Shown: positions 38,909-49,418 of the stretch, one piece after another | Layout of the letters: each line of letters begins with the position of its first letter | Numbering within the stretch: position 1 is the first letter of the stretch | Source of the DNA: Thiobacillus denitrificans DSM 12475 | Lineage (GTDB): Bacteria > Pseudomonadota > Gammaproteobacteria > Burkholderiales > Thiobacillaceae | Direction: 5' to 3' | DNA length: 64,000 nt | Assembly (NCBI RefSeq): GCF_000376425.1 | Contig: NZ_AQWL01000003.1 | Coordinates: forward strand, 89,894 to 153,893 | Notes under the pieces: generated by a model | What the model was told of the DNA's origin: nothing | Database searches by the model: none | What the model saw: the letters and a program-made list of their open reading frames with translations, nothing else | Position numbers and translations under genes: made by a program

Positions 38909-38922
38909 TGGCGGAGAGGGTG
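38909..38922. other. attL, left copy of the 14-bp integration core
   Basis: TGGCGGAGAGGGTG, identical to the tRNA-Ser 3' end at 49405-49418. Just inside lies a 17-bp hairpin GGCTTTT-CAT-AAAAGCC (38943-38959) and a 10-bp palindrome CAATGCATTG (38977-38986), which could be binding sites for recombination factors. Confidence 0.8.
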
Positions 38923-39031
38923 TCCGTTCTGCCGCTTTTCACGGCTTTTCATAAAAGCCTGTTTGCCTATATTTTTCAATGCATTGCAGGGTATACCTTT
39001 TCATGAGCGTACACCGCGCTTCATTTCCGTC

Positions 39032-39054
39032 TATGCTTAGAAAAATACTTAGAT
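39032..39054 (+). repeat. Left copy of a paired CTTAGA-N6-CTTAGA element
   Basis: Two CTTAGA boxes 12 bp apart inside a 23-bp block that recurs in the same orientation at 49332-49354, with 4 changed bases in the centre. It sits 110 bp inside attL and directly in front of the integrase start. This is the layout of arm-type integrase or excisionase binding sites, and it would allow the integrase to control its own gene. Confidence 0.6.
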
Positions 39055-39064
39055 GGGATTCCGC

Positions 39065-40303
39065 ATGGCAAAGCAAATCGAAAAGCTAACCCCCGAGTTT
39101 GTCGCCACCATCGACAAGCCCGGCATGTACCCGGACGGCTTGGGGCTATATCTTCAGGTCAGCAAGTGGAACACAAAGTCCTGGCTGTTTCGATACTCTC
39201 GCAATTATAAGCTTCGGTCATTCGGTTTGGGCGCGTGCCACACCATCACTCTGATGGAAGCCCGCAAGCGCGCGAGGCAGGCCCGGCAGATGCTTCTGGA
39301 TGGTGCTGACCCTATCGACACCAAGCGCGATAGCCGCCAGAAGGAACAGGCGGAGCAGGCAAGGGTGATGACTTTCGATCAATGCGCAACTGCCTACATT
39401 GAAGCCAAAAAGCACGGCTGGAAGAACGCCAAGCACGCCGAGCAATGGACGAACACAATCGACACCTACGCATCGCCTGTCATCGGCAAGCTGCCCGTGG
39501 CTGACGTGGACACCGCCCTGGTGATGAAGATTTTGCAGCCGATATGGACAACCAAAACAGAAACAGCAACACGGCTTCGCGGGCGCATCGAGTCCATTCT
39601 CGGATGGGCGACCGTGAGCAAATACCGCACTGGAGAAAACCCCGCACGTTGGCGCGGGCACCTGGACAACCTGCTGGCCAAGCGTAGCAAGGTAAAAAAG
39701 GTGGCGCACCATCCTGCCTTGCCCTACGCGGAAATTGGCGCATTTGTGGCAGGCCTGCGCAAGCAGGACGGCATGGGAGCGCTGGCGCTGGAGTACACCA
39801 TCTTGACAGCCGCCCGCACCGGCGAGGTGATCGGCGCAAGATGGGATGAAGTCGATATTGGCGCCAAGACCTGGACGATCCCACCTGAGCGCATGAAGGC
39901 GGAGAAAGAACACCTTGTCCCGCTATGCGGCCGCGCCATTGAGATACTGGAGGAACTGCGGCCGCTCGGCGGCGAGTTTGTTTTTCCTGGGCTCAAACCG
40001 GGCAAGACGCTGTCTAACATGGCGATGCTGGCTTTGTTGAAACGCCTGGAGCGTGGCGACCTTACCGTGCATGGATTCCGTTCTACGTTCCGCGACTGGG
40101 CAGCCGAGCAGACCGCGTACCCGCATGAAATGGCGGAGATGGCGCTCGCTCACGCCGTCAGCAACAAGACCGAAGCCGCTTACCGACGCGGCAACCTATT
40201 CAAGAAGCGCGTGAGGATGATGCAGGATTGGCAGAAGCACTGCGACACCGTTCAAAAGCCCGCCGATAACGTGCGGGCGATGAAAGCAAAGACCGCCGCA
40301 TAG
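39065..40303 (+). CDS. int: Tyrosine recombinase / integrase (DUF4102-type N-terminus)
   Basis: A 412-residue P4-like tyrosine integrase. It has the N-terminal arm-binding domain with GMYPDGLGLYLQVSKW near 25 and RQARQMLLDGADPIDTKR, and the catalytic residues Arg251 (AARTGEVIGARW), His336 and Arg339 (VHGFRSTFRDW), His363 and Tyr373 (EAAYRRG). It should catalyse integration at the tRNA-Ser 3' end. The ATG at 39065 is chosen; another ATG four codons upstream overlaps the repeat. A strong terminator follows, separating it from the next gene. Confidence 0.95.
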   Translation: MAKQIEKLTPEFVATIDKPGMYPDGLGLYLQVSKWNTKSWLFRYSRNYKLRSFGLGACHTITLMEARKRARQARQMLLDGADPIDTKRDSRQKEQAEQARVMTFDQCATAYIEAKKHGWKNAKHAEQWTNTIDTYASPVIGKLPVADVDTALVMKILQPIWTTKTETATRLRGRIESILGWATVSKYRTGENPARWRGHLDNLLAKRSKVKKVAHHPALPYAEIGAFVAGLRKQDGMGALALEYTILTAARTGEVIGARWDEVDIGAKTWTIPPERMKAEKEHLVPLCGRAIEILEELRPLGGEFVFPGLKPGKTLSNMAMLALLKRLERGDLTVHGFRSTFRDWAAEQTAYPHEMAEMALAHAVSNKTEAAYRRGNLFKKRVRMMQDWQKHCDTVQKPADNVRAMKAKTAA

Positions 40304-40344
40304 CCGGGCGAAAACGCTTTAGACGATCCGCCAAACCATAAAAA

Positions 40345-40368
40345 GCCCGCGTTACGCGGGTTTTTTTT
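40345..40368 (+). terminator. Intrinsic terminator after the integrase gene
   Basis: CCCGCG (40346-40351), loop TTA, CGCGGG (40355-40360), then eight T residues. Very strong by sequence. It isolates int from the downstream element operon. Confidence 0.9.
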
Positions 40369-40465
40369 CGCTGGGCTTCATGAGGATGCAAATAGTCGCA
40401 TTTCCCCCTAAACCTGCAACTCATCCCCCGGCACAGTGAGGCCTTCTTCATTCAAGGAGTTTCAC

Positions 40466-40729
40466 GTGCAAGAAAAACTCGCTTTCACCATCGCGGAATT
40501 CTGCACCATGTTCCACGTCAGCCGGGGCCGGCTGCACGAACTGGAGCGGGCCGGACTCGGGCCTAAAACCTACCGGATCGCATCACGTCCCTATATCAGC
40601 CTGGCCGCCGCCAAGGAATGGCAGCAGCGCATGGAGGCCGGCGCGGCTGAGAACTTCAAGCCCCTGCCCGCCAAAAACCCCGGCCGCCGTGGTCGGGTCA
40701 ACAGCGCATCCAAGGGCGGCGCGCTATGA
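40466..40729 (+). CDS. AlpA/MerR-like helix-turn-helix protein
   Basis: An 87-residue DNA-binding protein starting at a GTG with an AAGGAG site 5 bp upstream. FTIAEFCTMFHVSRGRLHEL (about 7-26) is a HTH, followed by RIASRPYISLAAAKEW, as in AlpA/excisionase-type regulators of P4-like elements. It follows the integrase terminator and is the first gene of the replication block, so a role as transcription activator or excisionase is likely but unproven. Confidence 0.7.
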   Translation: MQEKLAFTIAEFCTMFHVSRGRLHELERAGLGPKTYRIASRPYISLAAAKEWQQRMEAGAAENFKPLPAKNPGRRGRVNSASKGGAL

Positions 40730-40926
40730 AAGCCCCCGTCAACCGCAACCCGCGAAAAGTACCGCCTAACTCGAACACCAGCCGCCCGAACGGCGCAAGC
40801 GTGAGCGCCCTCTCGGCCCACCCCCGGGACGTGATCATCGCCGCCCTGGAGGGCAACCGCGAGACGCGCCGCCTGGCACGTCGAAACCTGAAAAAAATGA
40901 TGAAGGCCGACGGCGTTATCCGATGA
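40726..40926 (+). CDS. Small basic protein of unknown function
   Basis: A 66-residue protein whose ATG overlaps the stop of the upstream AlpA-like gene (ATGA) and whose stop overlaps the next start, so it is in a tightly coupled operon. It is rich in Arg, Lys, Asn and Pro, with a helical basic C-terminus (RETRRLARRNLKKMMKADG). No family recognised; nucleic-acid binding is plausible. Confidence 0.6.
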   Translation: MKAPVNRNPRKVPPNSNTSRPNGASVSALSAHPRDVIIAALEGNRETRRLARRNLKKMMKADGVIR

Positions 40927-41336
40927 GCGCCGACGCCCTGTTGGCGCACCTGGAAAACGTCAAACGCACCGGCGACGGCCGCTGGATTGCCCGCTGTCCT
41001 GCGCATGAGGATCGCCGCGCATCGCTGGCCGTGCGTGAGTTGGGCGACGGTCGCGTGCTGGCGCATTGCTTCGCCGGCTGCTCGATAAATGAAGTGCTTG
41101 GGGCGGTCGGTCTCGAAATGTCCGCGCTCTTTCCCGAAAAAATATCCGTGGACGGCAAGCCCGAGCGCCGGCCGTTCCCGGCTGCCGACGTCCTGCGCGC
41201 CGTGAGCTTTGAGACGCTGATCGTCTCGCTTGCCGCATCGCAGCTGGCGAAGGGCGAGCCCCTGCTCGGCGATGACCTGGAACGATTGAAGCTGGCGGCA
41301 TCGCGTCTGCATGCCGCAGCGGGGGCTTTTGAATGA
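40923..41336 (+). CDS. CHC2-like zinc-finger primase-associated protein
   Basis: A 137-residue protein with a primase-type zinc motif: RWIARCPAHEDRRASLAVRE (about 20-39), with Cys-Pro-x-His, and LAHCFAGCSINEVL (about 46-60). This is the N-terminal zinc ribbon of DnaG/phage primases, encoded alone. Its start overlaps the gene before it and its stop overlaps the ATPase gene after it. The two probably act together in replication of the element. Confidence 0.75.
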   Translation: MSADALLAHLENVKRTGDGRWIARCPAHEDRRASLAVRELGDGRVLAHCFAGCSINEVLGAVGLEMSALFPEKISVDGKPERRPFPAADVLRAVSFETLIVSLAASQLAKGEPLLGDDLERLKLAASRLHAAAGAFE

Positions 41337-48710: not shown

Positions 48711-48795
48711 GGCACCCTGTGTCTGGATAGCGGGGCCGCCAAGTGCGTCAACACCTGGCCGCCCCTGACCACCTGAAACTTTACTGGAGTCTCAA

Positions 48796-49050
48796 ATGGC
48801 TGAACCCATTGTAGTACGCACGCACCTCGATCTCGTCGACGGACTCTCTCTAGAATCCAAGTCACTTAAGGCTGGCCTTGGCCTGCTTTACGCCGCGCTG
48901 GCATTCGATCGCCGCAGCGAAGCCTCGGTCTCCGAGGCGCAGAATCATTTGTATTTTATTGCCGGAGCCCTGAGCGATCTGCAAAAAAGGCTTGAGAGCC
49001 TAGGGGCGGATGCCGAAGCGTTGCTTAACGCTGAAAAATTGGCGGCATAG
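48796..49050 (+). CDS. Small hypothetical protein of the element
   Basis: An 84-residue, mainly helical protein (SEAQNHLYFIAGALSDLQKR). A weak TGGAG site at 48785-48789 lies before the ATG. No family recognised. It may be transcribed with the next gene from its own promoter. Confidence 0.55.
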   Translation: MAEPIVVRTHLDLVDGLSLESKSLKAGLGLLYAALAFDRRSEASVSEAQNHLYFIAGALSDLQKRLESLGADAEALLNAEKLAA

Positions 49051-49051
49051 C

Positions 49052-49264
49052 GTGAGAACCGCGATCCCGGATAGCCCCAGAATGATTGATCTACAGCGGC
49101 AGATGCGCGAGGCGTCGGGTATTGGTGATCAACTAACGGCCCTGGCCGCACTTATACGCGCGGTCGACGGCGGGGAAATCAGCGAGGTCGAAGCCGGGAT
49201 ACTGCGCAAAGCCTTCGGTGAAACCATCGGGGAAACGATGATGCGATTGGAGCCCATCCAGTGA
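49052..49264 (+). CDS. Small hypothetical protein at the right end of the element
   Basis: A 70-residue protein starting from a GTG next to the previous stop; an ATG ten codons later (MIDLQRQ) is equally possible. Helical, acidic. It is followed by a strong terminator. No family recognised. Confidence 0.5.
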   Translation: MRTAIPDSPRMIDLQRQMREASGIGDQLTALAALIRAVDGGEISEVEAGILRKAFGETIGETMMRLEPIQ

Positions 49265-49290
49265 CCCGCTTCCCTTCCTGATACAAAGAC

Positions 49291-49315
49291 AGCCCGGCCT
49301 TAGCGCCGGGCTTTT
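49291..49315 (+). terminator. Intrinsic terminator at the right end of the element
   Basis: AGCCCGGC (49291-49298), loop CTTAGC, GCCGGGCT (49305-49312), then TTTCG. It ends the element's plus-strand transcript before attR and the tRNA. Confidence 0.8.
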
Positions 49316-49331
49316 CGTTGGCGGGTACTGA

Positions 49332-49354
49332 TATGCTTAGAAGGTCACTTAGAT
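49332..49354 (+). repeat. Right copy of the paired CTTAGA-N6-CTTAGA element
   Basis: Same 23-bp layout and orientation as 39032-39054, with a changed centre (AGGTCA instead of AAAATA between the CTTAGA boxes). It lies 51 bp from attR. One copy near each end of the element is expected for integrase arm sites. Confidence 0.6.
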
Positions 49355-49404
49355 TGTTTAGCCTTTTATATTTATCTTATTTATCAATGGCTTATTGTAT
49401 ATAC

Positions 49405-49418
49405 TGGCGGAGAGGGTG
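49405..49418. other. attR, right copy of the 14-bp integration core
   Basis: TGGCGGAGAGGGTG forms the CCA end and acceptor-stem 3' strand of tRNA-Ser on the opposite strand. The repeat is exact with 38909-38922 and ends at the next base on both sides. Confidence 0.8.

Follow-up and report, generated by a model that had tools for sequence, protein, structure and literature searches.

A 10.5-kb element integrated at tRNA-Ser in Thiobacillus denitrificans: a probable phage satellite with its own capsid and tape measure genes

Gene content of the element

Contig NZ_AQWL01000003.1 of Thiobacillus denitrificans DSM 12475 carries, in the 64-kb stretch analysed here (the window), a candidate phage satellite of 10.5 kb at positions 38909-49418. 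Its bounds are two + strand copies of the 14-mer TGGCGGAGAGGGTG (attL, 38909..38922; attR, 49405..49418), which has no other copy on either strand of the window. The right copy is the 3' end of a tRNA-Ser(CGA) gene encoded on the minus strand (49405-49494). A query made of the joined flanks was contiguous, and the site hence empty, in 4 of 57 Thiobacillus genomes (G032, G009, G026 and G055); the other 53 comprise the element's own, occupied genome and genomes whose flanks lie apart, are cut or are otherwise arranged. Thus, the 10.5 kb are an insertion, integrated at tRNA-Ser. A first-pass annotation of the window had proposed the same bounds and had listed an integrase, an AlpA-like regulator, a primase with an ATPase, iterons, a capsid and a tape measure; profile matches (weak for AlpA) and an inverted repeat agree with that list.

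All genes described below lie on the + strand. The tyrosine integrase (416 aa, 39053..40303; PF22022, 1.3e-32) is 86% identical to that of a related element, L016, and 80% to that of another, L069, both of which sit at tRNA-Ser with a near-identical att core. The AlpA-like regulator (97 aa, 40436..40729) has a weak match to phrog_66 (1.1e-4) and only weak MerR/helix-turn-helix (HTH) matches in Pfam; its true start may lie near 40466, and over 75 residues it is 84% identical to the product of a gene on a phage contig, L176. A 66-aa protein with no assigned function (40726..40926; 79% identical in element L012) precedes a zinc-ribbon primase piece (137 aa, 40923..41336; phrog_6088, 2.4e-14) and a replicative ATPase (548 aa, 41333..42979; phrog_29234, 1.4e-108) that is 84-88% identical in elements L012, L107 and L110.

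An inverted iteron array (42980..43093; arms 42980-43005 and 43068-43093), a candidate replication origin, follows the ATPase gene; it is the only inverted repeat between 36001 and 56000 whose arms agree at 24 or more of 26 positions with such closely spaced starts. The iteron motif is GCGGGGTCT in the window versus GCGGATGAT in L012, despite primases and ATPases that are 97% and 86% identical between the two; iteron specificity therefore seems to change fast. Elements L003, L012 (9775-9890), L013, L014, L016, L107 and L110 each have an inverted short-repeat array of their own at the corresponding place, and in the virome contig L145 the iteron region (4853-5029) is an extended array, which can also be read as a frame made of repeated RVL units.

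The next gene (43197..43790) encodes a 197-aa HTH protein, represented in an alignment of 10 homologues, whose best match is the small terminase (TerS) family phrog_57 (9.3e-9). The earlier statement that the element has no packaging machinery was thus too strong. The gene is preceded by a conserved DNA block (43092..43204, + strand) that was captured in a sequence-only model of about 110 bp, built from the six elements with a window-type capsid (class A, described below). RNAalifold found no pair in the block with changes on both sides, so an RNA structure was rejected and the block was treated as DNA. It is a candidate packaging site or late promoter.

The capsid region follows. The product of g149 (158 aa, 43787..44263), with no function assigned, is present in all six class-A elements, and its profile also matches L106, L107, L109, L110, L122, L145 and L146. 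The major capsid protein (342 aa, 44260..45288; PF25209, 8.9e-20; NF045541, 2.9e-33; phrog_4523, 2.2e-30) aligns to positions 311-620 of a 634-position NCBIfam model of a prohead protease/major capsid fusion, scoring far under the full-length cut-off of that model. Because the match is restricted to these positions, the protein corresponds to the shell half without the fused protease half. It is homologous to phage capsids: in a tree of 26 capsid domains, the six class-A capsids are recovered as a single clade (100/100) whose stem measures 1.63 changes per site and with which the capsids of the virome contigs L145 and L146 group weakly (57/74).

Downstream of the capsid gene, g169 (169 aa, 45288..45797) has no assigned function, occurs in all six class-A elements and gives dN/dS values of 0.16-0.23 in six pairs. 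It is followed by a zincin with the motif HEAGH (191 aa, 45926..46501), whose frame of 245 aa opens at 45764 and whose probable start is 45926. The zincin has no match in Pfam, PHROG or NCBIfam; its assignment, already made in the first-pass annotation, is based on the HEAxH motif, which is invariant in all seven aligned homologues. Searches of PDB sequences with the capsid, zincin, g149 and TerS-like proteins returned nothing usable.

A 75-aa protein with no assigned function (46489..46716; 82% identical in L013, 43% in L016) separates the zincin from the tape measure protein (556 aa, 46726..48396; phrog_13338, 1.5e-52; phrog_8462, 2.3e-34). The tape measure is accompanied by g71 (48400..48615), as it also is in L012, L014 and L071, and the frame listing shows two overlapping 84-aa frames with no assigned function at 48796..49264. 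Thiobacillus prophages have tape measures of 895-986 aa, and a shortened tail was considered; the idea was rejected, as the nearest phage relative is 570 aa long and matches at 67% along its length. The tape measure is therefore not shortened, and particles made with it would be expected to have tails of ordinary length.

Virion genes missing from the element

No TerL (large terminase), portal, tube, baseplate or lysis gene was matched in the element by Pfam, PHROG and NCBIfam scans of the window, as had been noted from the sequence at first pass. Its only frames of at least 250 aa are those of the integrase, ATPase, capsid and tape measure and one antisense to the ATPase, which leaves no room for a TerL or portal gene. 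The element is small, integrated and equipped with its own integrase and att repeats, and its virion gene set is incomplete, as in satellites. TerL and portal were likewise not found in ten elements whose long frames were listed (at least 250 aa and passing a codon-position GC filter); among these frames, those at the replication position (432-688 aa) in L003, L014, L016 and L106 and a 283-aa frame of L070 lie outside the profile scans.

A family of related elements

A capsid search of 101 genomes, the window's own included, matched six. Full-length matches lie in G000 (two places), G006 (two) and G036 (one), and weak matches in G008, G034 and G059 fall inside long protease-capsid frames. The genome that contains the window has a second element with a 55% identical capsid, and a scan of genome contigs added L016, from a Burkholderiales metagenome-assembled genome, whose capsid is 82% identical. 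Class A consists of six elements (the window's, L003, L012, L013, L014 and L016) from Thiobacillus and this one Burkholderiales genome. The first-pass annotation had suggested that its gene order be sought in relatives; the order TerS-g149-capsid-g169-zincin is common to all six, with integrases and replication genes that vary. In the five other class-A elements, no portal, TerL or additional tail gene was seen between these neighbouring genes, the replication frames of L003, L014 and L016 being assigned by position.

DNA comparison shows that the elements are mosaic by module. The window shares int-alpA and the stretch from the block to the zincin with L016 (84-85% nucleotide identity), primase-ATPase with L012 (86%), part of the tape-measure end with L014, and the zincin and 75-aa genes with L013. 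NG86 estimates of dN/dS were 0.13-0.55 in all 53 pairs examined, covering seven genes, with several pairs near dS saturation and the tape-measure pairs including phage contig L115. The class-A capsids are thus under purifying selection. Together with the recurrent arrangement, these values support the earlier view that the element is not decaying.

The block model matched 13 places in nine of the 57 Thiobacillus genomes: six known elements, five new ones (L106-L110) and two places, L111 (E 0.0046) and L112 (E 0.0097), that were discarded as spurious because they fall within long host frames. Nine further loci contain the block: L106 (1.4e-15), L146 (4.4e-10), L107 (4.2e-8), L168 (1.1e-7), L145 (1.5e-5), L070 (1.6e-5) and, weakly, L109, L110 and L108 (1.7e-4 to 4.4e-4). 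L106, L107, L109 and L110 have TerS-like proteins 40-54% identical to the window's, g149 profile matches (3.4e-12 to 1.6e-6) and capsids of another class, phrog_617, to which the capsid of L070 also belongs (2.5e-35). L070 further encodes a 668-aa tape measure and a g149 homologue. L069 has a window-type integrase and alpA, a phrog_371 capsid (7.1e-28) and an 828-aa tape measure, with neither a block nor a TerS match.

Ends were mapped for nine elements of 8,569-10,724 bp at five tRNA types: Ser (the window's, L016, L069), Asn (L012, L070, L107), Arg (L014), Val (L013) and Thr (L106). These nine came from 13 tRNA tests; the four tests that gave no far-end repeat concerned L110 (cut by the contig end), L168 and two neighbouring alternative tRNAs. 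A tape-measure search matched 10 of the 57 Thiobacillus genomes and brought to light L069, L070 and L071, the last an element cut by contig ends. Among the ten whole elements (the nine with mapped ends and L003), five encode a tape measure: the window's, L012, L014, L069 and L070.

Other islands were seen alongside these elements. L108 (8349-10510), at a tmRNA gene, has a phrog_57 TerS (5e-30), its weak block match and then, by inspection, mer-like genes at the capsid position. L035 (8750-19818) and L036 (9680-16648), from other Burkholderiales families, combine a phrog_57 TerS with an unfused capsid of the phrog_4523 class, and L170 (4700-12677) has a related ATPase (38%) and, by inspection, a 726-aa tape-measure-like and a 341-aa protease-like protein. 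L037 (5444-19053) and L068 (9725-18060) were rejected as integrase satellites because their PHROG matches show Mu-type transposition genes; they are Mu-type transposable islands (transposition, Gam-like or late-activator matches) in which a capsid and a tape measure are encoded and the frames scanned gave no match to TerL or portal. The contig of L037 also carries L038, a fuller prophage with TerL and portal.

Relatives in viromes and phage contigs

IMG/VR queries with the capsid or TerS-like protein gave no close relatives. Two virome contigs are related to the satellites. L146 (9.2 kb) has an integrase (53%), an ATPase (66%), the block, a TerS (phrog_57, 3e-9; TerS profile, 2.7e-29) and a complete protease-capsid fusion of 646 aa; its g149 profile match is at 5.4e-5. 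In L145 (8.9 kb) an ATPase (66%) and the block are present, with a g149 match (1.2e-4) and a 645-aa frame that aligns with the satellite capsid. A metagenomic cousin, L122, has an exact 99-bp terminal repeat and is therefore a closed molecule of 9,896 bp. It encodes a 646-aa fusion capsid (75% identical to that of L146), a g149 profile match, a tape measure that runs across its ends and, by inspection, an integrase and replication genes, with no frame resembling TerL or portal. The first 500 bp or so of its tape measure are 81% identical to that of phage contigs L116 and L119; the TerL match in the L116 record contains one internal TGA.

The 19.3-kb phage contig L115/L176 shares alpA with the window (86% nucleotide identity over 224 bp), and its 570-aa tape measure is 67% identical to the window's 556-aa protein over 559 columns, full length. 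Its capsid is a 713-aa protease-capsid fusion only 30% identical to the window capsid. A major tail protein is also present, together with a portal-like 492-aa gene recognised by inspection.

Proposed life cycle and alternative explanations

The element is most probably a helper-dependent phage satellite that brings its own shell protein, a TerS-like protein and, in many family members, a tape measure, and borrows the motor, portal, tail and lysis functions. The bounds, empty sites, gene content, family conservation, purifying selection, the closed cousin, and the alpA and tape measure common to the window and a phage contig are read from the sequences themselves. Excision, virions, a helper and roles for the TerS-like protein, block, g149, g169 and zincin belong to the following proposal. 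A helper phage would induce AlpA, the integrase would excise the element at the tRNA-Ser repeat, and the primase and ATPase would replicate it from the iterons. The TerS-like protein, perhaps through the block directly upstream of its gene, would direct helper TerL to satellite DNA. The protease-less satellite capsid would co-assemble with, or replace, the helper shell protein around the helper portal, giving a small head with room for about 10 kb. Where a satellite tape measure is encoded, as in half of the whole elements, it would replace that of the helper, the rest of the tail being helper-made. Tape measures act in genome injection, and one encoded by the satellite could match the satellite's head or escape interference.

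Several observations weigh against this interpretation. The host genome offers no candidate helper: neither PF05876 nor PF05136 matched there, and its sole phrog_2 match (8.3e-5) is, by inspection, a UvrD-like helicase. TerL matches occur elsewhere in genomes G034 and G381, and a helper prophage is shown for no element. The tape measure is missing in L003, L013 and L016 (by tblastn) and in L106 and L107. The TerS assignment is modest (9.3e-9 in the window, 4.9e-5 in L106, 1.3e-4 in L107), and other HTH profiles also score. The block was not matched in the prophage and phage stretches checked (E 1), nor did its window copy have a blastn match in 50,697 phage records, and for this reason it may be a promoter. 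The 19.3-kb record of L115 has no TerL, so that this contig may be incomplete or not an ordinary phage. A 6.8-kb fragment, L147, has a TerS (phrog_57, 5.3e-21) and a TerL (phrog_15, 1.9e-189) beside primase and ATPase genes of the satellite type, and could come from a phage or from a more complete satellite. Finally, most genomes compared are draft assemblies. In L147 (2598-6083) a minor tail protein gene also adjoins the terminase and replication genes, a possible satellite-phage link; a g149-like gene suspected there was dropped, as the g149 profile has no match in the fragment.

Tai systems of phage-inducible chromosomal islands (PICIs) block tail assembly, according to the available text of PMC11364771, and the capsid and tape-measure homologues might likewise be weapons that poison helper head and tail assembly, in which case particles would be wholly helper-built or not formed. 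This is unlikely. Not every element has the tape measure, which would suit an accessory weapon, but it is about as long as that of its nearest phage relative (556 versus 570 aa, 67% identity), as expected of a working part, and the class-A capsid always occurs with TerS and g149 (6/6). An origin from a capsid-forming PICI that lost its terminase and portal genes would account for the int-alpA-rep-TerS-capsid order; it is improbable given that TerL and portal were not found, within the limits stated above, in any of the ten elements with listed long frames and that the satellite capsid lineage stands on a long stem. Least credible is a prophage reduced by deletion that kept its capsid and tape measure by chance. 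In its favour, both proteins resemble those of phages, L115/L176 has alpA and the tape measure in common with the window and carries portal-like, capsid and tail genes between them, and L147 joins TerS and TerL to satellite-type replication genes. Against it, six elements with unlike integrases and replication genes have the arrangement in common, purifying selection and the narrow size range speak against decay, and the low identity of the L115 capsid (30%) beside that of alpA (84%) and the tape measure (67%) fits mosaic exchange and not deletion.

Comparison with known satellites

The helper-dependent satellite proposed here has its nearest precedent in a set of 224 putative satellites from E. 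coli and its near relatives (PMC10448857). In the available text of that source, they carry capsid, decoration, tape-measure and baseplate genes, lack terminase, protease, alpA, adapters and Pri-Rep, and are targeted by Odn-like nucleases of phages Inny, Muut and Mt1B1_P17. As described there, they share with the Thiobacillus family att-bounded, mostly tRNA-located integration, an own capsid and tape measure, and the lack of terminase, prohead protease and most tail genes. They differ in having RepA_N initiators and decoration and baseplate genes, none of which was found in the Pfam and PHROG scans of the window, whereas the AlpA-like, primase/ATPase, TerS-like, g149 and zincin genes are on the Thiobacillus side. 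Positions 44300-48290 have no match in 20,395 E. coli records, a comparison made at the DNA and not the protein level.

In cos-type Staphylococcus aureus pathogenicity islands (SaPIs) with Ccm, the satellite likewise has a capsid homologue and no other head genes. The SaPIbov5 Ccm is a single capsid homologue that forms no shell alone and co-assembles with the phi12 helper capsid protein into a smaller one (PMC8569155, available text). A Ccm-like role fits the present capsid, which has no protease half; Ccm differs in its cleaved N-terminal delta domain, and the window element adds a TerS-like protein and a zincin, and its family often a tape measure.

Capsid-forming PICIs share the integrase, AlpA-like regulator, primase, TerS and own capsid, and the window has its own major capsid protein. 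They differ in that, according to the available text of PMC10690885, their genes include those for capsid, protease, portal, connectors, both terminase subunits and HNH, so that only the tails must come from a helper. The window scans matched no TerL, portal or connector gene, PF05876 and PF05136 were not found in G000, G006, G036 and G381, and the window does not depend on a helper for all tail genes, having the tape measure at 46726-48396. The int, AlpA, primase/rep order of Gram-negative PICIs is present in the window, with a weak AlpA match (phrog_66), and is shared with the EcCICFT073 type, which has no TerS and uses helper-type cos sites (PMC6092414, available text). The window's candidate for such a site is the conserved block before the TerS-like gene.

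P4-like satellites share an AlpA-type regulator, primase-helicase replication and the broad layout; Pfam scans of the element's genes gave no match for their psu, delta, epsilon and alpha (PF07455, PF04606, PF10554 and PF03288; accessions from PMC8628076). The Pseudomonas AH14b satellite has an integrase, an AlpA-like gene, a primase and no terminase, as well as a tail-assembly homologue, but is 16.8 kb long, has no capsid of its own and is packaged as multimers in helper capsids (PMC4936722, available text).

The literature searched, mostly by title and abstract start, holds no account of the Thiobacillus family. The first-pass proposal of an undescribed satellite family thus stands as to the satellite and the family. 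It needs qualifying in that the capsid and tape-measure part list has a precedent, going by what is available of PMC10448857, and in view of L147 with its TerL. What appears to be new is the family itself, together with its chassis, its TerS, the capsid that lacks a protease and the swapping of capsids.

The satellites studied in most depth either alter helper heads by means of one or two proteins or, as capsid-forming PICIs do, make the whole head. The Thiobacillus family and, from its available description, the PMC10448857 group are intermediate; their chassis are unrelated, and each also contributes a tape measure. It is possible, if still doubtful, that they reflect a recurrent strategy, of which the Thiobacillus family would be the example from a second bacterial lineage. 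The parasite would bring the two parts that set the dimensions of a tailed virion, the shell subunit and the tape measure, here along with a packaging selector, and the helper would give portal, motor, tube, tip and lysis; capsid classes would be swapped as cassettes behind one front, and the HEAGH zincin, found with the capsid class that lost its fused protease, would represent a novel type of head-maturation protease. With these two groups one can test how few virion parts a parasite needs of its own, whether phages can swap tape measures, and by what routes capsid genes pass from phages to satellites or back. The family further suggests that satellites with a capsid but no portal may be commoner in environmental bacteria than marker-based searches show.

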